From NCBI GenBank assembly GCA_030431455.1, contig JAUIJE010000019.1, positions 1 to 64,000 on the forward strand: a stretch of DNA of 64,000 bases, written 5' to 3'. Shown piece by piece: positions 47,018-56,241 of this stretch. A program made the translations under genes and the position numbers. The first letter of the stretch is position 1. Every line of letters starts with the position of its first letter. This DNA is from a bacterium (GTDB lineage: Bacteria; Myxococcota; UBA727; JAUIJE01). The notes below the pieces were generated by a model, which was not told the origin of the DNA, did no database searches, and saw only the letters and a program-made list of their open reading frames with translations.

Positions 47018-47833
47018 TCAGCCGCCGAGGGGCTCGCCCGGGGCGTACACCTGGCGGTTGGGGCCGAACCCAAACCCACGCACGCCCGCTTTGCGCAGGG
47101 CCTCGGCCACCTCCCGGCGGGCAAACCAAGCCCGCGACATCTCGCCGAGGCCGAACAGGGCGGGCGCGGGCACGGTCTTCAACACGACCTGTTTGGGCGC
47201 GAGGTTGTTCACGGAGGCGGCGGGGTGTTGCAGGGTCACCACCCCCCATCCCGCCGGGTCGCGGGGGTCGCCGAAGTAAAACGACGACTTGGCCAGGTCG
47301 ATGTCCCCGGCCGCGGTGGCGTAGCTGAACAGTGCATAGTGGGTCGCGGTCTTGTCCCCGCGGGCCACCTGCACGGGGACAAAACGGCTCGGCCCGAGGT
47401 CGAAGCGCTCCAGCACCGCCTTGGCCCGGGCGCTGACCACAAAGCCGGCGGTGAGCCAGGGGGCAAAAAAACAATCCCCGCCGTCATCGCCCCCCTCGAG
47501 GCGGAACGTGCCGAGGTCGAGGTCGATGGGCGGGAGCGTTCGCGCGGTTTGCAGGCTGTAGACCGAGGCCGGGTCGGTGGCTTGCCAGACCGGGGCGGTG
47601 GTGCGGACCGGATTGGCGTAGGCCGCGGTGGGTGCACAATCAAACTGCACAAACGCGGTGGACACCGCGTGATCGGCGTAGCGGGCCTCGTGGGCGCGCT
47701 TGGCCTCGAACGCGGCCTCGACCAAGGGGTCGACGGGCGCCTGGGCGACGGCGGGCGCGGCCGCGGCCAAGGCCCCGGCGAGGAGCGCCGGTCGCATAGA
47801 CATTGTGGACGAGGCGAAGCCGGGGATGTTCAC
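47018..47833 (-). CDS. Exported protein of unknown function
   Basis: A 271-residue protein with a signal peptide (core MSMRPALLAGALAAAAPAVAQA). GTG 47833 overlaps the stop of the LamG-type lipoprotein gene as GTGA, so I keep it; internal ATGs at 47803 and 47797 would give a shorter, more standard signal. The mature part has Cys in FDCAPT and GGDCFF, beta-rich segments (RFVPVQVARGDKTATHYALFSYA) and a conserved-looking C-terminus (GVRGFGFGPNRQVY). No family is recognised. Coupling suggests it works with the LamG-type lipoprotein. Confidence 0.7.
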   Translation of the reverse strand: MNIPGFASSTMSMRPALLAGALAAAAPAVAQAPVDPLVEAAFEAKRAHEARYADHAVSTAFVQFDCAPTAAYANPVRTTAPVWQATDPASVYSLQTARTLPPIDLDLGTFRLEGGDDGGDCFFAPWLTAGFVVSARAKAVLERFDLGPSRFVPVQVARGDKTATHYALFSYATAAGDIDLAKSSFYFGDPRDPAGWGVVTLQHPAASVNNLAPKQVVLKTVPAPALFGLGEMSRAWFARREVAEALRKAGVRGFGFGPNRQVYAPGEPLGG

Positions 47834-49293
47834 GGGCCCTCCGCGGGGTCGACGGTGACAAAGTCAGAGTTCGGGCGTTGGCTCGCGTACACCGCTTCCG
47901 CCCAGCCCGCGGGCACCGCCTGGTCGAGGAGCAGGACCTCGTCGAGGGTGCCGTCCAGCCATTCGTCGGTGGTCACCCAGGGCACGGTGGCGAGCCACAC
48001 GTCTTGGTCGGGGTCGTCGAAATACGGGGTCACGTCCTGTTCGTCGACGAGAACGCCGTTGATCCACAACGTGGACAGGCCCGCCTCGGTGGCGCGCAAA
48101 AAGACGTGGGTCCAGCCCGGGTGGCCCTGGCCGGGCGGGGGCGTGAGCAACGACAGGTAGTTGTTGGGCCCAAAGCGCGTGTGCAGGTTGTACGCGGTGT
48201 CCGCGGGGTTGGGGTTGAGCACCACGTCGAGCCCGTCGACCGAGTCGAACGCGGGGCGGCGCACGAACAGGCGCATCCAGCGGTTGGCGTTCTCGTCGTC
48301 GACGGAGACCCACGCGGAGAGGCTCAGGCTGGCCAGCGACGGGGCGGCGGCATCGGACCAGGGCACTTGCACCCCCGCGGTGCCGCTGAAGTGCGACGCG
48401 CGGCCGACCACGCCGGCGGGGAAGGGGTTGTTGGGGTCGAGGGCCTGGGGCTGCAAGATGCCGTCGCGTTGCGCCTGGCTGCTGTCGGGCACGGTGTCGC
48501 CAACGTTGCCTTGGTCGAGGTGCCAGACGCCGACGAAGTCATCGGACCAGGCCGGGGGGGGGACGGGCGGGGTCCCAGCCGGGTGGAAATAGGCATAGAA
48601 GGTCGTGTTTTGGCCGGGCACGAGCTGGGGGACCCGCACGTAGGCTTCGAGGCTGCCGGTGCCCGGGTCGTAGTGGGTGATGTCCGCGCCCCAGAGCACA
48701 TCGGTGCTCGAGAAGAACGCGATCTGTGCGGCCTGTGCGCCGGAGGCCTCGGGGCTGGCGTCGAGCCGCACCAACACCGGGAAGTCCTGGAGCGTGGCCG
48801 TGACCTGGGTGCCGTCGACGTGAATCGCGCGCCGGGCGAGGTACGGCAGGTTCCATGGGGCGCCCGCGTCGACGCCGTGCGCGTCCGGGGGCCCCCCCGC
48901 ATCAAACAGCCCCGCGTCGAGCCCCCCGGCGTCGACCGTCACGATCACCCCGGCGTCGTCGTCGCCTGAAGAACCGGCGTCGGCGGCTCCGCCGTCCGAC
49001 GGTTCTTCCAAGCCGCCGTCAGGCGGCCCATCTCCATCCCCATCTCCATCTCCATCTCCATCTCCGTCGCCGTCGCCGTCGCCTGAAGAACCGGCGTCGG
49101 CGGCTCCGCCGTCCGACGGTTCTTCCAAGCCGCCGTCCGGCGGCCGGTCTCCATCGCCATCGCCATCGCCGTCACCGTCGCCGTCTCCATCCCCGTCGCC
49201 GGAAGAACCGGGGCCCCCCACCAAAAAGAACGAGCAGCCGCCCGCCATTGTCAGCAACCCCACCAGCGCGCTCGCCCACACCATCCGCAGCAT
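47830..49293 (-). CDS. DUF2341/LamG-type lipoprotein with duplicated cassette linker
   Basis: A 487-residue lipoprotein (lipobox MAGGC). The N-terminal 130 residues are linker: a Gly-Asp tract, a cassette copy, a second Gly-Asp tract and a second cassette copy, then Asp/Ala/Gly sequence. From about 145 a DUF2341-like domain (ARRAIHVDGTQVTATLQDFPVLVRLD) is followed by a LamG/concanavalin-like lectin domain (WSDDFVGVWHLDQ, SLSAWVSVDDE, WTHVFLRATEAGL, WLDGTLDEVLLLD). Such pairs bind glycans or polymers on secreted proteins. TACGCT six bases before ATG 49293 suggests a leaderless mRNA, although GGGGG there could also act as a weak Shine-Dalgarno. Confidence 0.88.
   Translation of the reverse strand: MLRMVWASALVGLLTMAGGCSFFLVGGPGSSGDGDGDGDGDGDGDGDGDRPPDGGLEEPSDGGAADAGSSGDGDGDGDGDGDGDGDGDGPPDGGLEEPSDGGAADAGSSGDDDAGVIVTVDAGGLDAGLFDAGGPPDAHGVDAGAPWNLPYLARRAIHVDGTQVTATLQDFPVLVRLDASPEASGAQAAQIAFFSSTDVLWGADITHYDPGTGSLEAYVRVPQLVPGQNTTFYAYFHPAGTPPVPPPAWSDDFVGVWHLDQGNVGDTVPDSSQAQRDGILQPQALDPNNPFPAGVVGRASHFSGTAGVQVPWSDAAAPSLASLSLSAWVSVDDENANRWMRLFVRRPAFDSVDGLDVVLNPNPADTAYNLHTRFGPNNYLSLLTPPPGQGHPGWTHVFLRATEAGLSTLWINGVLVDEQDVTPYFDDPDQDVWLATVPWVTTDEWLDGTLDEVLLLDQAVPAGWAEAVYASQRPNSDFVTVDPAEGP
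48962..49029 (-). repeat. Palindromic cassette, copy C
   Basis: 68 bp identical to the corresponding part of copies A and D, on the minus strand, inside the lipoprotein linker. Flanked by a Gly-Asp tract on its 5' side. Confidence 0.85.
49030..49204 (-). repeat. Two (Gly-Asp)n tracts flanking cassette copy B
   Basis: GGNGAY hexamers occupy about 49030-49078 and 49147-49204 (minus strand), separated by cassette copy B. They encode acidic spacers of about eight and ten Gly-Asp pairs. Confidence 0.75.
49079..49146 (-). repeat. Palindromic cassette, copy B
   Basis: 68 bp matching copy C at all but about two positions, 117 bp away in the same gene. Together with the Gly-Asp tract between them it looks like a tandem duplication of a cassette-plus-tract unit. 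Confidence 0.85.
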
Positions 49294-49461: not shown

Positions 49462-51672
<2,211 letters not shown>

Positions 51673-52177
51673 TTTTTGGGAGGGGCTGTCCCAGGCCCCT
51701 GGCAATGCTTCGCATTGCTTAGGCGAACTGTGTTCGCCCTCCCCCGCTCACGGCTCCTAAAGTCGCCGAGTCGCGGGGCCCCCACCCAATGTCGCTGCTC
51801 CAACGGCCTGGCTGCCGCGAAGCGGCAGCTTAAGCCAAGCCGAAGGCTTGGCCTCCGGCCCGTCGCAGCGGGCTTGCATCCTGCGGATGCAACGGTGTTG
51901 AGGTTTTGGGATGTGCTAGATGCTCTGTCCTCCGCGAGGGGGCGTAGGCCCCCTCGCCCCTTCACGGCGCGCAAGCGCTCGTGGGGGGCCAAGCGACGCT
52001 TGGCTGGAGCAACGCGGATGCAACCAGCTGGGGAAGACAACGGGTGGATCGGAAAAGCCCGCGCCTTGTGCGCGGGTTTTTTGTGCGTGGGGCGGGCCCC
52101 CCTTCCGGGGCGCAGGAGGCTCGTCCATTCGCGGGGACCGAATCGTTTTGTCGGTGTGGCCAAGGCCCGGAGGCGAC
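51673..52177. other. 505-bp non-coding region with an array of small perfect hairpins
   Basis: No credible gene is seen here. Instead a series of short palindromes follow one another: 51681-51700; 51702-51718 (7 bp, loop TTC); 51722-51738 (7 bp, loop TGT); 51811-51829 (8 bp, loop GAA); 51834-51852 (8 bp, loop GAA); 51858-51873; 51874-51892 (8 bp, loop TGC); 51935-51956 (9 bp, loop GTAG); 51964-51984; 51988-52004 (7 bp, loop GAC); and the terminator at 52058-52082. Stem sequences differ from each other, loops are three or four bases. The first hairpin may terminate hppA. The rest could be a structured RNA or a mobile palindrome cluster. Confidence 0.75.
52058..52082 (+). terminator. Rho-independent terminator
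   Basis: CCCGCGC (52058-52064), loop CTTGT, GCGCGGG (52070-52076), then six T (52077-52082). It closes the hairpin array on the plus strand, consistent with transcription through that region. Confidence 0.8.
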
Positions 52178-54636
52178 GTGCAACGATTTGAGCTGTCGGA
52201 CGGAAAATCGAACAAATTCTGGCAAGTAGACGTGCAGGACACGGACCTGGTGGTCCGGTACGGGCGCATCGGGACCGACGGCCAGGAGAAGATCAAGTCG
52301 TTCGACTCCACGACCCAGGCGGAAAAGGAGCGCGACAAGCTCATCGCCCAGAAGACCAAGAAGGGCTACGCCCCGGCCGGGGACACCGCCCGGGCGGCGC
52401 CGCCCGCGCCGAATCGTGACAAGCCGGCGCCGAAGCCAGCGGCCTCGAAGCCGGCGGTCAAAAAAACGGCCCGCGCGGGGGTGCCGGAGGTGCTCGCGCA
52501 CCCCCCGTGGCTGGCGCCGAAAAAGGCCTCAACCAAAAAAGCGGGGCCGGCGGTGGTGATCGAGCTCGAGCCCCTCCCGCATCCCGAGTCGATGGACTGG
52601 GAAGAGGGCGCGCGGGAAGAGCACACCCGCTATGCCCCACACGAATCCAGAAAGAGCGTGCAGGAGTTCTTGAACCGGTGCGCAGAACACGCGGACAAGG
52701 GCAAAAGCATGTACGCGTACATCGATGACCACTGGTACATGCGTGACCTGGTCGACGACGACATCGCCCGCGCGCTGGCGGAGGCCCCGAATCACGTCTG
52801 GCGCAGCTACACCGCAGAGTACGTCGTGGGCCGGCTGAACGAGCGCGTGCTCGAGTCCGAACGCATCTTCGAGCTCGCCGCCCATTTCGGCCAACCCGCC
52901 GCGAGCAAGATGTTGGCGCCGGTGGTGTCCACCCGGGCGGCGCGGTTCATGGCCCGCGGGTTCGTGGGCAAGCGCACCCGCGCGTTGGGCGAAGCCTGGC
53001 TCGACAAACACCCCGAGACCGCGGCGGTGGGGCTCATTCCTGTGGCATTGGAAAAGAAGGGCAAAGACCGCGACGCGGCCCGGGCCGCCCTGCAACACCT
53101 GGGGGCTCGCGGCCACGGCCCGCTCGTGCAGCAGACCGCGGCGCGCTACGGTGAGGAAGCCGCCGCCGACATGCGCGCGTTGCTCGGCGAGGACACCGCG
53201 GCCGCGTTGCCGGACAAGCTGCCCAAGCTCCCGAAGTTCCTGCAGCGGGACGCGCTCCCACCCGTCGAGCTGACAAGCGGCGGCACCCTGGCCGAGGACG
53301 AGGTCGAGGCGCTGCTCACGATGCTCGCGTTTTCGCCCCTGGACAATCCCTACACCGGCATCGCCGCGGTCAAGGCCGCGTGCACCGACGAGAGCTTGGC
53401 CGCGTTCGCCTTGGCCTTGTTCCAACAGTGGCAAGCCAACCGCGAGCCGTCCGCCGAGGCCTGGATGCTGTTCGCGGGGGGGCTGCTCGGCGACGATCAG
53501 CTGGCCCGGGCGCTCACCCCCGTGATCCGGGCCTGGCCGGGGGCGGGCGGTCACCAAAAGGCGGTCAAAGGCCTGGCCGTGCTGCGGGCCATCGGGTCCG
53601 ACGTGGCGATGATGATGCTGTATGGCATTTCGCAGAAGGTGAAGTTCAAGGGCATCAAGGAGCAGGCCCGCCAGATGGTGGACGCCATCGCCCAGGAGCG
53701 CGGCCTCACCGTGGCCGAGCTCGGCGACCGGTTGGTCCCGCGGCTCGACCTCGACGACGATGGGTCGATGCGCCTCGACTTTGGGCCCCGGGCGTTCACG
53801 TGGGCTTCGATGAAGCGCTCAAGCCCTTTGTCGTCGACGAGAACAATAAGCGGCTCAAGTCCTTGCCCAAGCCGGGCAAGGCCGACGACGCGGCGCTGGC
53901 CGCCGCCGCCACCGAGCGGTTCAAGACGCTGAAGAAGGACGTGCGGACCTTGGCCCACCAACAGGTGCTGCGGCTCGAGCTCGCGATGTGCGACCGGCGG
54001 CGCTGGCGCGCGGCCGATTTTCGGTCCTACCTGGTGGAGCACCCCTTGGTGGTGCACCTGGCCCGCCGCCTGGTGTGGGGGGTGTACGACGCGCAGGGCG
54101 CGCTGCAGACCACGTTCCGGGTGGCGGAGGACCGCACCTTGGCCGATGTCGACGACAACCAAATGACATTGGACGACAACGCCCGCGTGGGGTTGGTGCA
54201 CCGGCTCGACCTGTCCGACGCGCAGGTCGCGCGCTGGGGCCAGGTGTGGAGTGACTACGAGTTGGTGCAACCGTTCGAACAGCTCAGCCGCGAGACGTTT
54301 GTGCTGCGCGACGACGAACGCGGGTCCCGATCCCTCGGCCGGCACGACGCCGAGCGCGAGGTGTCGTTGTCCCAGGTGCTCAGCCTGCTCAACCGCGGGT
54401 GGGAAAAGGGCCCGCCCCAGGACGCGGGCCTCATCTGGTGGCTGCGGCGTCCGCTCCCCGGCGCGCGCGACCCCGCCAAGCTTCACCTCAGCCCGGGGCT
54501 GTACGCCGGGGGCCATTGGGAAGAGGGCGAGGCCCAAAAGCTCGAGGCGATTTCGTTGCCGGTGGCCGCGGGCGACCTCGACCCCGCGCTCTGTTCGGAG
54601 CTGTTGCGCGACATCTCGCTGGTGATGTCCGACTGA
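52178..54636 (+). pseudogene. WGR/DUF4132 protein gene with a single-base frameshift
   Basis: GTG 52178 follows GGAGG at four bases. The first frame (to 53932) gives a WGR domain at about residues 1-75 (FWQVDVQDTDLVVRYGRIGTDGQ), a Lys/Ala/Pro linker, and the start of a DUF4132 region. At about 53795-53801 homology moves to the next frame: the first ends its sensible sequence at DFGPRAF, the second continues VGFDEALKPFVVDENNKRL and runs to 54636 with typical DUF4132 motifs (SDYELVQPFEQLSRE, WWLRRPLPG). One missing base in TTCACGTGGGC explains it. Restored length would be about 819 residues. WGR domains bind DNA or act as protein modules; function unknown. It may be an assembly indel rather than a real pseudogene. 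Confidence 0.8.
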
Positions 54637-54777
54637 CCGTGCGCGGCCGTCGCAATGCCACTGCGTGCCTCCGCGGCGTGCGGGTGTGGCCGCGGGTGGA
54701 TGTGGGCGCGGTCACAGAACACGCCGTGCCATTTGCGCCCGGCCCACGATCTGGCCAGCGCCCGGTCCGCGTCGTTT

Positions 54778-54805
54778 CTCCTCCACGGGGCTGCCCCGGA
54801 GGAGG
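54778..54805 (+). promoter_or_regulatory. Hairpin burying the Shine-Dalgarno of the LNR lipoprotein gene
   Basis: CTCCTCC (54778-54784) can pair with GGAGGAG (54798-54804), with an inner GGGG/CCCC stem (54787-54790 and 54794-54797, loop CTG). The right arm is the Shine-Dalgarno GGAGGAGG, six bases before ATG 54811. In the folded state the ribosome site would be closed. Confidence 0.6.
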
Positions 54806-54810
54806 TCAGG

Positions 54811-56241
54811 ATGTGGCATCGGCTGAACAATCGTGGGGGGTTGGCTCTCATCATCTTCCTCGGGGGGGCGCTGTCCGCGTGCACCGGCGGGGACGGGGAG
54901 GAGATCGCCCGCGACGACGACGACCGCGGCGATGGGCAAGAAGACCTCTGCGAGACCCAGGGCTTGTACGGCGATGGTGTGTGCGACCGCGCCTGCGCCA
55001 ACCCCGACCCCGATTGTGAGGGCGAAGGCGGCGATGGCGATGGGCCGCCTGACGGCGGCTTGGAAGAACCGTCGGACGGCGGAGCCGCCGACGCCGGTTC
55101 TTCAGGCGATGGGGACGGCGACGGGGATGGGGATGGGGATGGTGATGGTGATGGGGATGGGGATGGCGACGGCGACGGCGACGGCGATTGCGCGGGCCAA
55201 CCTGCCTGGATCAGCGACGGCTACTGCGACCCGGAGAACAACAACGCGGGGTGCGGCTACGACGGGGGCGATTGTTGTTCGGACACCTGCAGCGACGGGC
55301 CCCAGTACATGTGCGGCTCAGCCGGCTTCGACTGCCAAGACCCCAACGCGAGCGGCAACGGCGGGTGCGGCGACCCGCTTCACGTCGCGGGCACGTTGCA
55401 GGTGGCGGGCAAGACCGTCACCGCCCAACCCGGTGCGTTCGCCACCATGAACCTGCGCCACAAGATCGACATCGACCCCATCGAGGACGGCTGCGTGTCC
55501 GCCCAGAACGTGCAGGTCGAAATGAAACTGCATCCGAACGGGTGTCGGGTGGACCTGCACTTCACCCAGCAGGACAACACCGCGTTGGTGCGGCTGAGCT
55601 GGCTCTCGTTCCACGCCGATTCTTTCTGCCCCGGGTTTTTGGACGCGGAGGAGGGCTCCTACACGACGTCGTCGTCCGCGGCGATGGCCGATGGCTTCGC
55701 TGCCCACGCCGCCCTGTGGCTGCAAGGGCTGCCCGCCCAGGTCCCGGATGCCCAGGCGAGCACCTCCTGCTTGGACAACGTCACCCTCAGCGTCGCGGAC
55801 CTCGACATCCCGGTGGGCACCCCCGGCGGCGAAGCGGCCAGCATCAATCTCAGCGGGTTGACCATCACCGGCTCGCCGGTGAGCACCGGCAGCACCAACG
55901 CCGCGTGCCTTCAGGGCGTGGGGTGTATGGCGTCCGCGCACGACGGGGGCGGCGGCCTCTGCTACGACTTCGGCACCTGCGCCCCCGGCTACAGCTATGA
56001 CCCCGACCAGGACATGTGCCAGTTCGGCCCTGGGCCCGAGCCGGAGCCGGAGCCGGAGCCCGAGCCCACCGGCGAGTGGACCTGTTCGGCCAGCTACTAC
56101 GGCACCGGCGACGGCTGTGACTGCGGGTGCGGCATCCCCGACCCGGACTGCGCGACCTCCGCCATCGCCTCGTGCGCCTACGCGGGCAACTGCGGGTCCC
56201 TCGACTTCGTCGACCCCGCGGACACGACCCAATGTCTCTGA
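54811..56241 (+). CDS. LNR-containing Cys-rich lipoprotein with cassette and (Gly-Asp)n linker
   Basis: A 476-residue lipoprotein (lipobox LSAC). After an acidic stretch and a short Cys motif (LYGDGVCDRACANPDPDC) come cassette copy D, 14 Gly-Asp pairs, and an LNR (Lin-12/Notch repeat) module of about 30 residues, ISDGYCDPENNNAGCGYDGG followed by DCC, with the DGxCD and GYDGGDC calcium-coordinating pattern. A beta-rich domain of about 230 residues with two Cys pairs follows, then a Pro-Glu repeat and a final Cys module ending GCGIPDPDCA. ATG 54811 has a strong Shine-Dalgarno in a hairpin. Surface display and calcium-dependent folding are likely; the function is unknown. Confidence 0.87.
   Translation: MWHRLNNRGGLALIIFLGGALSACTGGDGEEIARDDDDRGDGQEDLCETQGLYGDGVCDRACANPDPDCEGEGGDGDGPPDGGLEEPSDGGAADAGSSGDGDGDGDGDGDGDGDGDGDGDGDGDGDCAGQPAWISDGYCDPENNNAGCGYDGGDCCSDTCSDGPQYMCGSAGFDCQDPNASGNGGCGDPLHVAGTLQVAGKTVTAQPGAFATMNLRHKIDIDPIEDGCVSAQNVQVEMKLHPNGCRVDLHFTQQDNTALVRLSWLSFHADSFCPGFLDAEEGSYTTSSSAAMADGFAAHAALWLQGLPAQVPDAQASTSCLDNVTLSVADLDIPVGTPGGEAASINLSGLTITGSPVSTGSTNAACLQGVGCMASAHDGGGGLCYDFGTCAPGYSYDPDQDMCQFGPGPEPEPEPEPEPTGEWTCSASYYGTGDGCDCGCGIPDPDCATSAIASCAYAGNCGSLDFVDPADTTQCL
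55042..55112 (+). repeat. Palindromic cassette, copy D
   Basis: 71 bp identical to copy A at 44471-44541, about 10.5 kb away in a gene of unrelated domain content. It again directly precedes a Gly-Asp tract. Confidence 0.85.
55105..55188 (+). repeat. (Gly-Asp)14 hexanucleotide tract
   Basis: Fourteen GGNGAY hexamers between cassette copy D and the LNR module. Confidence 0.85.

Follow-up and report, generated by a model that had tools for sequence, protein, structure and literature searches.

The DNA analyzed here (the window) comprises 64,000 nucleotides, positions 1 to 64,000 of contig JAUIJE010000019.1 in assembly GCA_030431455.1. It carries hppA, and between the stop codon of this gene and an ordinary terminator lie two neighboring copies of a dispersed repeat that is here named F1 (Table 1). 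The run of hairpins that the first-pass annotation had placed from position 51681 onwards corresponds to these two copies, and its start is the hppA stop codon at 51670. The gene downstream of F1, at window positions 52180 to 53932 (+), encodes by eye a WGR-domain-like protein with a long C-terminal region and a MQRFELSDGKSNKFWQVDVQ-like start. The proteins encoded at 47830 to 49293 (-) and 54655 to 56241 (+) have long low-complexity repeats of the GDGDGD... kind in common, as though a repeat in coding sequence had spread from one gene to the other.

Table 1. Features of the hppA locus (window coordinates) and positions of the derivative F3 on other contigs
Feature	Position	Strand	Basis
hppA ORF	49462-51672	+	ORF list
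hppA TAG stop; with the preceding C it forms CTAG, the left boundary of F1	51670-51672	+	Stop at offset 0 of the model match
F1 copy 1, full length: TAG, leader, H1, H2, H5, H6, tail, CTAG	51670-51919	+	Covariance-model match and right-end motif
H1 of copy 1, GGGAGGGG ... CTCCC, split by an inserted double-hairpin module	51678-51743	+	Sequence and fold; H1 intact in L005
Double-hairpin module 1 inside H1: GCAATGC-TTC-GCATTGC, TTA, GGCGAAC-TGT-GTTCGCC	51700-51738	+	
H2 of copy 1, CCCCGC ... CGGC ... GCCG ... GCGGGG	51742-51778	+	Consensus structure with covariation
H5 of copy 1, CGCTGC TCCAA CGGCC ... GGCCC GTC GCAGCG, interrupted by module 2	51793-51870	+	Consensus structure with covariation; empty site in L005
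Double-hairpin module 2 in the H5 apex: GCTGCCGC-GAA-GCGGCAGC, TTAA, GCCAAGCC-GAA-GGCTTGGC	51809-51853	+	Site C: filled in L001, empty in L005
H6 of copy 1, TTGCATCC-TGC-GGATGCAA	51874-51892	+	Perfect hairpin and covariation
Right end TTTTGGGATGTG(--)CTAG, resembling the resident IS5-family terminus, CTAG at the boundary	51904-51919	+	
F1 copy 2, degenerate: H1 (51934-51957), H2, one hairpin (51988-52004), H6 remnant	51925-52036	+	Covariance model
Ordinary Rho-independent terminator	52053-52081	+	Inverted repeat and T run
F3, ~86 bp, one IS5-like end, one hairpin (CGACGAGACGCCC...GGGCGCTCGTCG)	C8:510469-510570, C18:143383-143746, C16:127349-127449		

Within the segment scored for hairpins (51673 to 52082), seven perfect hairpins with stems of 7 to 10 bp and loops of 3 to 4 nt occur at 51702 to 52004, as against a mean of 0.14 and a maximum of 2 when these 410 bp are shuffled 300 times with preservation of dinucleotides. 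This bears out the dense array of tight hairpins originally noticed, and their stems indeed differ in sequence and are not copies of one another. The hairpin strand downstream of hppA folds with a z-score of −5.7 as RNA relative to shuffles, and F1 copy 1 taken alone with a z-score of −4.3 as DNA. A count of the kind that the first-pass annotation had proposed for the whole genome gives, over 2.46 Mb of it, a background of 0.41 perfect short-loop hairpins per kb. Clusters with at least three such hairpins number only 22 in these 2.46 Mb; the seven in the window are among the largest, and the large clusters lie mostly at F1. With this background, a general richness of intergenic DNA in hairpins is ruled out, and the density is special to the F1 element and far beyond chance. 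The hppA copy is particularly rich in hairpins because two double-hairpin modules sit in it. The run had also been described as ending in a terminator; a Rho-independent terminator is present, but it is an ordinary one lying beyond the insertions, probably that of hppA itself, pushed downstream by them.

A covariance model of F1 built from ten copies finds approximately 76 matches at an E value of <1e-4 in its own genome (7.7 Mb, 28 contigs), and a BLASTN search of the same genome with the hppA hairpin segment retrieves 68. Copy 1 at hppA matches the model at C27:51670-51906 (E value of 3.7e-23), with a match to the right-end motif at 51904 to 51921, and copy 2 matches at an E value of 1.5e-5. 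The order of parts in F1 is stop codon, short pyrimidine-rich leader, H1, H2, C-rich linker, H5, H6, and the tail AGCTGAGGTTTTGGGATGTGCTCTAG. H1 is a G-rich stem, and H2 is a two-part stem with the apex TCGCAAGCTC. H5 consists of an outer stem, an internal loop (TCCAA/GTC), an inner stem, and a TCC loop, and H6 is of the GTTGCATCC type. Altogether, F1 has six hairpins in a fixed order, their loops conserved and their stems covarying strongly.

An F1 tandem array with a period of 159 bp is found at the end of contig C6 (G000:C6:1-443), and a similar copy is found at the start of C20 (C20:1-126); contigs appear to break at F1 tandem arrays. Three F1-like units follow one another at C4:394054-394458; their H6 is of another type (GTCGTAGGC-TTC-GCCTACGAC), and double-hairpin modules recur in them. 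BLASTN across 57 relatives gave no F1 match. A covariance-model match in the relative G053 looks like coding sequence and was dropped, and the single matches of the exact H2 pattern in GTDB and viral contigs appear, from their flanks, to be chance occurrences within coding sequence. A word search of open-access papers, which leaves most subscription journals outside, found no description of a multi-hairpin repeat that lies flush with stop codons.

The gene context of F1 was read over 2.46 Mb of the genome plus individual loci, with several F1 matches outside that set. In nearly all primary copies examined, F1 begins at the initial T of an in-frame stop codon, and this codon ends a long ORF upstream. 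The stops at the 45 tabulated copies are TAG in 30 and TGA in 15, whereas the called ORFs as a background end in 980 TGA, 330 TAG, and 82 TAA (30/45 versus 330/1392 for TAG, p of 2.6e-9). The dinucleotide immediately preceding the stop fits [AT][CT] in 41 of the 45 copies, compared with 247 of 1392 (18%) in the background (p of 1.5e-25). The left-boundary context is mostly [AT][CT]TAG, and overall [AT][CT]T(AG/GA), and the placement of F1 reflects a preference for sequence, with CTAG as the main target. In the genome sample, CTAG occurs at 327 sites, distributed over 105 stops of called genes, 55 coding positions, and 167 other, noncoding positions. The availability of CTAG accounts for a good part of the placement but not for the whole; by itself, it would not put over 90% of copies at stops unless some extra selection or preference acted. 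The upstream proteins (hppA, pheS-like, outer-membrane, and others) show no obvious common theme when their C termini are compared by eye. The clearest primary copy away from a protein-gene stop is at C24:189165-189481 (-), where two tandem F1 copies directly follow a tRNA CCA end (C24:189481). At L023 (C18:320401-320537), an insertion is flanked by a 26-bp direct repeat of the gene end, CTTGTGCTCCGCCCCACCTCCTCTAG, and at C28:396832 an insertion is flanked by a direct repeat of about 30 bp of the gene 3′ end, including the stop; both exceed a 4-bp target duplication.

The right end of F1, GGTTTTGGGATGTGCTCTAG, matches TTTTGRGAYGYGYTCTAG, and its similarity to the end of a resident insertion sequence (IS) extends over 18 bp. 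The tail end TTTTGRGAYGYGYTCTAG occurs at 56 sites in the genome, compared with 4 for the reversed control pattern. Two inverted pairs of this motif enclose an IS of approximately 1.0 kb with DUF4096 and DDE_Tnp_1 halves (IS5 family, NF033580), and an autonomous IS5-family transposase is present in two full copies, at C28:26315-27339 and C16:127430-128431. This element also has derivatives, namely, F2, with both ends, and F3, with one end, which usually lies on the stop codon of a gene. The ends of the IS and of its derivatives are mostly flush, at offset 0, with the TAG stops (CTAG) of genes coming from outside, and F1, F2, and F3 are stacked side by side at CTAG in several places. Copies of F1 that retain the tail are bordered at each end by CTAG or by a sequence one base different from it. 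For comparison, IS5 of Escherichia coli duplicates a 4-bp target of the CTAA/CTAG type (PMC11677980). As a YTAR target, CTAG or TTAG is found at most of the TAG copies of F1, and the 15 TGA copies do not fit YTAR.

A relative of F1 was found in G008, a genome of the same order but another family. The covariance model yields three weak matches there, and with one of these loci (L182) as the query, some 40 copies are found in G008 and several in G006. L182 starts at a TAA stop and closely resembles the hppA copy in H1 and H2. The ends of the G008 repeat are inverted repeats, YTAR-CAGGSTGCKGAAAA, often arranged as inverted pairs about 130 to 145 bp apart, and the 4-bp flanks of these pairs mostly match each other (CTAG/CTAG, CTAA/CTAA, and TTAG/TTAG). 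The relative has the standard layout of a miniature inverted-repeat transposable element (MITE) around the same kind of hairpins, and it provides the strongest single support for mobility by an IS5-type mechanism.

Because of the flush CTAG stops, the shared right end, and the inverted repeats and YTAR duplications in G008, F1 is filed here as MITE-like and as probably moved by an IS5-type transposase. The region 3′ of hppA probably consists of two adjacent copies of such a nonautonomous element at the CTAG of the hppA end, served by the transposase in trans. Of the meanings proposed at first sight, that of decaying mobile palindromes is the one that fits best in its mobile part, given the dispersed copies, the placement at stop codons, the IS-like right end, and the MITE-type relative with target duplications. 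The decay applies only partly, as 158 of 201 hairpins in F1 copies are perfect and both arms of the stems vary together. In the mechanism that we propose, the transposase would insert F1 at YTAR sites, mostly CTAG. Such sites would be rare in this genome of 70% G+C, and many of the harmless ones would be stop codons. An insertion at a stop codon would leave the gene intact, and later insertions could stack at the CTAG newly formed beyond the first one. Pairing would be maintained in the DNA itself: the spread might depend on hairpins in single-stranded or cruciform form, or template switching during replication might repair imperfect palindromes.

The pairing of the hairpins is extensive. Across 67 F1 copies, pairing holds in 93.8% of the stem cells, and both partners have changed in 29 of 33 pairs. 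The covariation score is 0.377, compared with 0.13 for shuffled and 0.03 to 0.06 for slid controls, and for each helix there are between 5 and 13 different stem sequences that pair completely. A selected RNA would tolerate G-U mismatches but not A-C. In F1, G-U is no commoner than A-C: the model alignment has 49 versus 41, and 201 hairpins counted without an alignment have 5 versus 13. As a control, nine tRNAs from this genome show 15 G-U versus 0 A-C, which is indicative only, since paired stems are a requirement of the tRNA finder. The model alignment is biased in favor of G-U, and the true balance is thus, if anything, less RNA-like. A search of Rfam at the gathering threshold finds only one tRNA in the window and no match for the hairpins. 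The structured RNA that had been offered as one meaning of the array is thus rejected as the main reading for the lack of a wobble preference and of an Rfam match. The way in which the hairpins change from copy to copy and yet stay paired fits hairpins kept at the level of DNA rather than a folded RNA.

A more specific form of the RNA explanation is a 3′-untranslated region (UTR) RNA, such as a new terminator, stabilizer, or regulatory RNA, selected after particular genes, with the position after the stop being functional. The exact placement in sense orientation after stops would suit such an RNA, as would the conserved loops, covarying stems, and strong fold and the copy that directly follows a tRNA CCA end. 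Besides the mismatch balance and the missing Rfam family, it has to contend with upstream genes that share no obvious theme, with a normal hppA terminator retained beyond F1, and with IS5-type elements and derivatives that are equally flush on stops. A 3′-UTR RNA is, on this evidence, quite improbable.

Covariation could also arise without function, if template switching during replication turns imperfect palindromes into perfect ones and both arms change together. Events of this type at imperfect palindromes are known in E. coli (PMC7202029), and the changes of H6 by single pairs in steps (GTTGCATCC, GTCGCATCC, GTCGTATGC, GTCGTACGC ...) and the swaps of G-C to C-G without wobble intermediates are what it would produce. 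Pure mutation leaves unexplained, however, that unpaired internal loops (diversity of 0.09 to 0.30) are more conserved than several stems (outer stems, 0.48 to 0.51), with values of 0.18 for the H2 apex TCGCAAGCTC and 0.09 for the GTC of the H5 internal loop. As a full account of the covariation, template switching is possible but not likely; it concerns the hairpins alone and can be compatible with the MITE-like reading. The conserved unpaired motifs indicate that the hairpins are not mere passive palindromes. We infer that folded DNA matters for F1, perhaps aided by template switching.

Some properties of F1 count against an ordinary MITE. CTAG is palindromic, and a DDE transposase is expected to insert in both orientations. 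F1, however, meets the stop codon with its left end in essentially all copies, and this end lacks a terminal inverted repeat corresponding to the right one, such as is present in the IS, in F2, and in the G008 relative. The TGA copies could be explained by a change of TAA to TGA after insertion, which is possible. Taken together, the missing left inverted repeat, the strict orientation, and the one third of copies at TGA could mean a strand-specific mechanism that reads hairpins rather than ordinary DDE transposition. A single-stranded DNA transposon of the REP/RAYT, IS200/IS605, or IS91 type, with an enzyme that binds hairpins and inserts 3′ of CTRR, would account for these properties, including a tetranucleotide kept 5′ of F1 and the use of both CTAG and CTGA, and for hairpins conserved as DNA with conserved unpaired bases. 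Against it, the right end resembles that of the resident DDE element, the G008 relative bears the inverted repeats and duplicated targets that characterize DDE elements, and the Y1 (TnpA-REP) transposase PF01797 is absent from this 97% complete genome, while control genomes were positive. A transposon of this kind is therefore considered unlikely, and a REP/RAYT origin in particular was rejected for want of a Y1 transposase. A retroelement origin (group II intron, DGR, or retron) was rejected likewise, as the reverse transcriptase PF00078 is absent from the genome and was found in control genomes.

Apart from F1 itself, the genome contains nested modules of 43 to 46 nt with two triloop hairpins each (consensus TGGCC-stem-GAA-stem-TTCA-GCAACGC-GAA-GCGTTGCC). 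They are inserted at five distinct F1 sites, with clean empty sites in other copies, and also occur in F2 and alone. Tandem triloop pairs number 23 in 2.46 Mb, compared with 3 in a shuffle. These double-hairpin units appear to constitute a second layer of insertion inside F1 and related elements. They resemble the double-hairpin or repetitive hairpin-forming elements of the mitochondria of fungi and sponges (PMC2800124) in having two short-loop hairpins a few bases apart, in occupying many noncoding sites, and in being structurally diverse, but they reside in a bacterial chromosome and are mostly nested in another mobile repeat. The likeness is one of form only, and no descent is claimed, the units being too short and variable. 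It is conceivable, if somewhat doubtful, that F1 and the modules represent a new structure-recognized class of bacterial mobile DNA, a counterpart of the mitochondrial elements, in which folded DNA hairpins, constant in their loops but free to vary in their stems, direct insertion immediately 3′ of WYTRR stops and the modules move by themselves.

The closest known elements include the IS5-family IS (NF033580, DUF4096 plus DDE_Tnp_1) and their MITEs, which F1 resembles in its mainly CTAG/YTAR sites, in a right end similar over 18 bp to that of the resident element, in the stacking at CTAG, and in the inverted repeats and YTAR duplications of its G008 relative; it differs from them in the absent left inverted repeat, the orientation bias, the TGA copies, and the covarying interior of six hairpins. 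Known MITEs are mostly single long palindromes. BOX and REP/BIME are among the small bacterial repeats to which F1 can be likened, being noncoding, intergenic, 100 to 250 bp long, able to fold into hairpins, and present in many copies. To our knowledge, repeats of the RUP, Correia, ERIC, BOX, or REP type are not flush on stops, nor do they combine a covarying multihairpin architecture with nested modules. The general likeness extends to RUP, Correia/NEMIS, and ERIC (PMC2229807), and RUP is thought to be mobilized by a resident IS (PMC2229807). Integron attC sites are similar in lying right after stops and in having a conserved structure with variable sequence, but F1 is dispersed and not found in cassette arrays, and no attC core sites were seen by eye. 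The attC sites are recognized as folded single-stranded DNA.

F1 is largely explained as a small nonautonomous mobile repeat. It is of note for its placement on stop codons, its covariation at the DNA level, and its nested modules, and it is not a new RNA. As a natural case of stems that covary without an excess of G-U, it means that covariation alone is no proof of a functional RNA. Nested double-hairpin insertions in a bacterial chromosome would connect the MITEs of bacteria with the hairpin elements of mitochondrial DNA, which have long gone unexplained. For a dense, G+C-rich genome, a target motif that is rare except at stops and in noncoding DNA would provide mobile DNA with a harmless niche, and the retention of the stop codon, with further insertions stacked on its far side, would be part of this harmless strategy.
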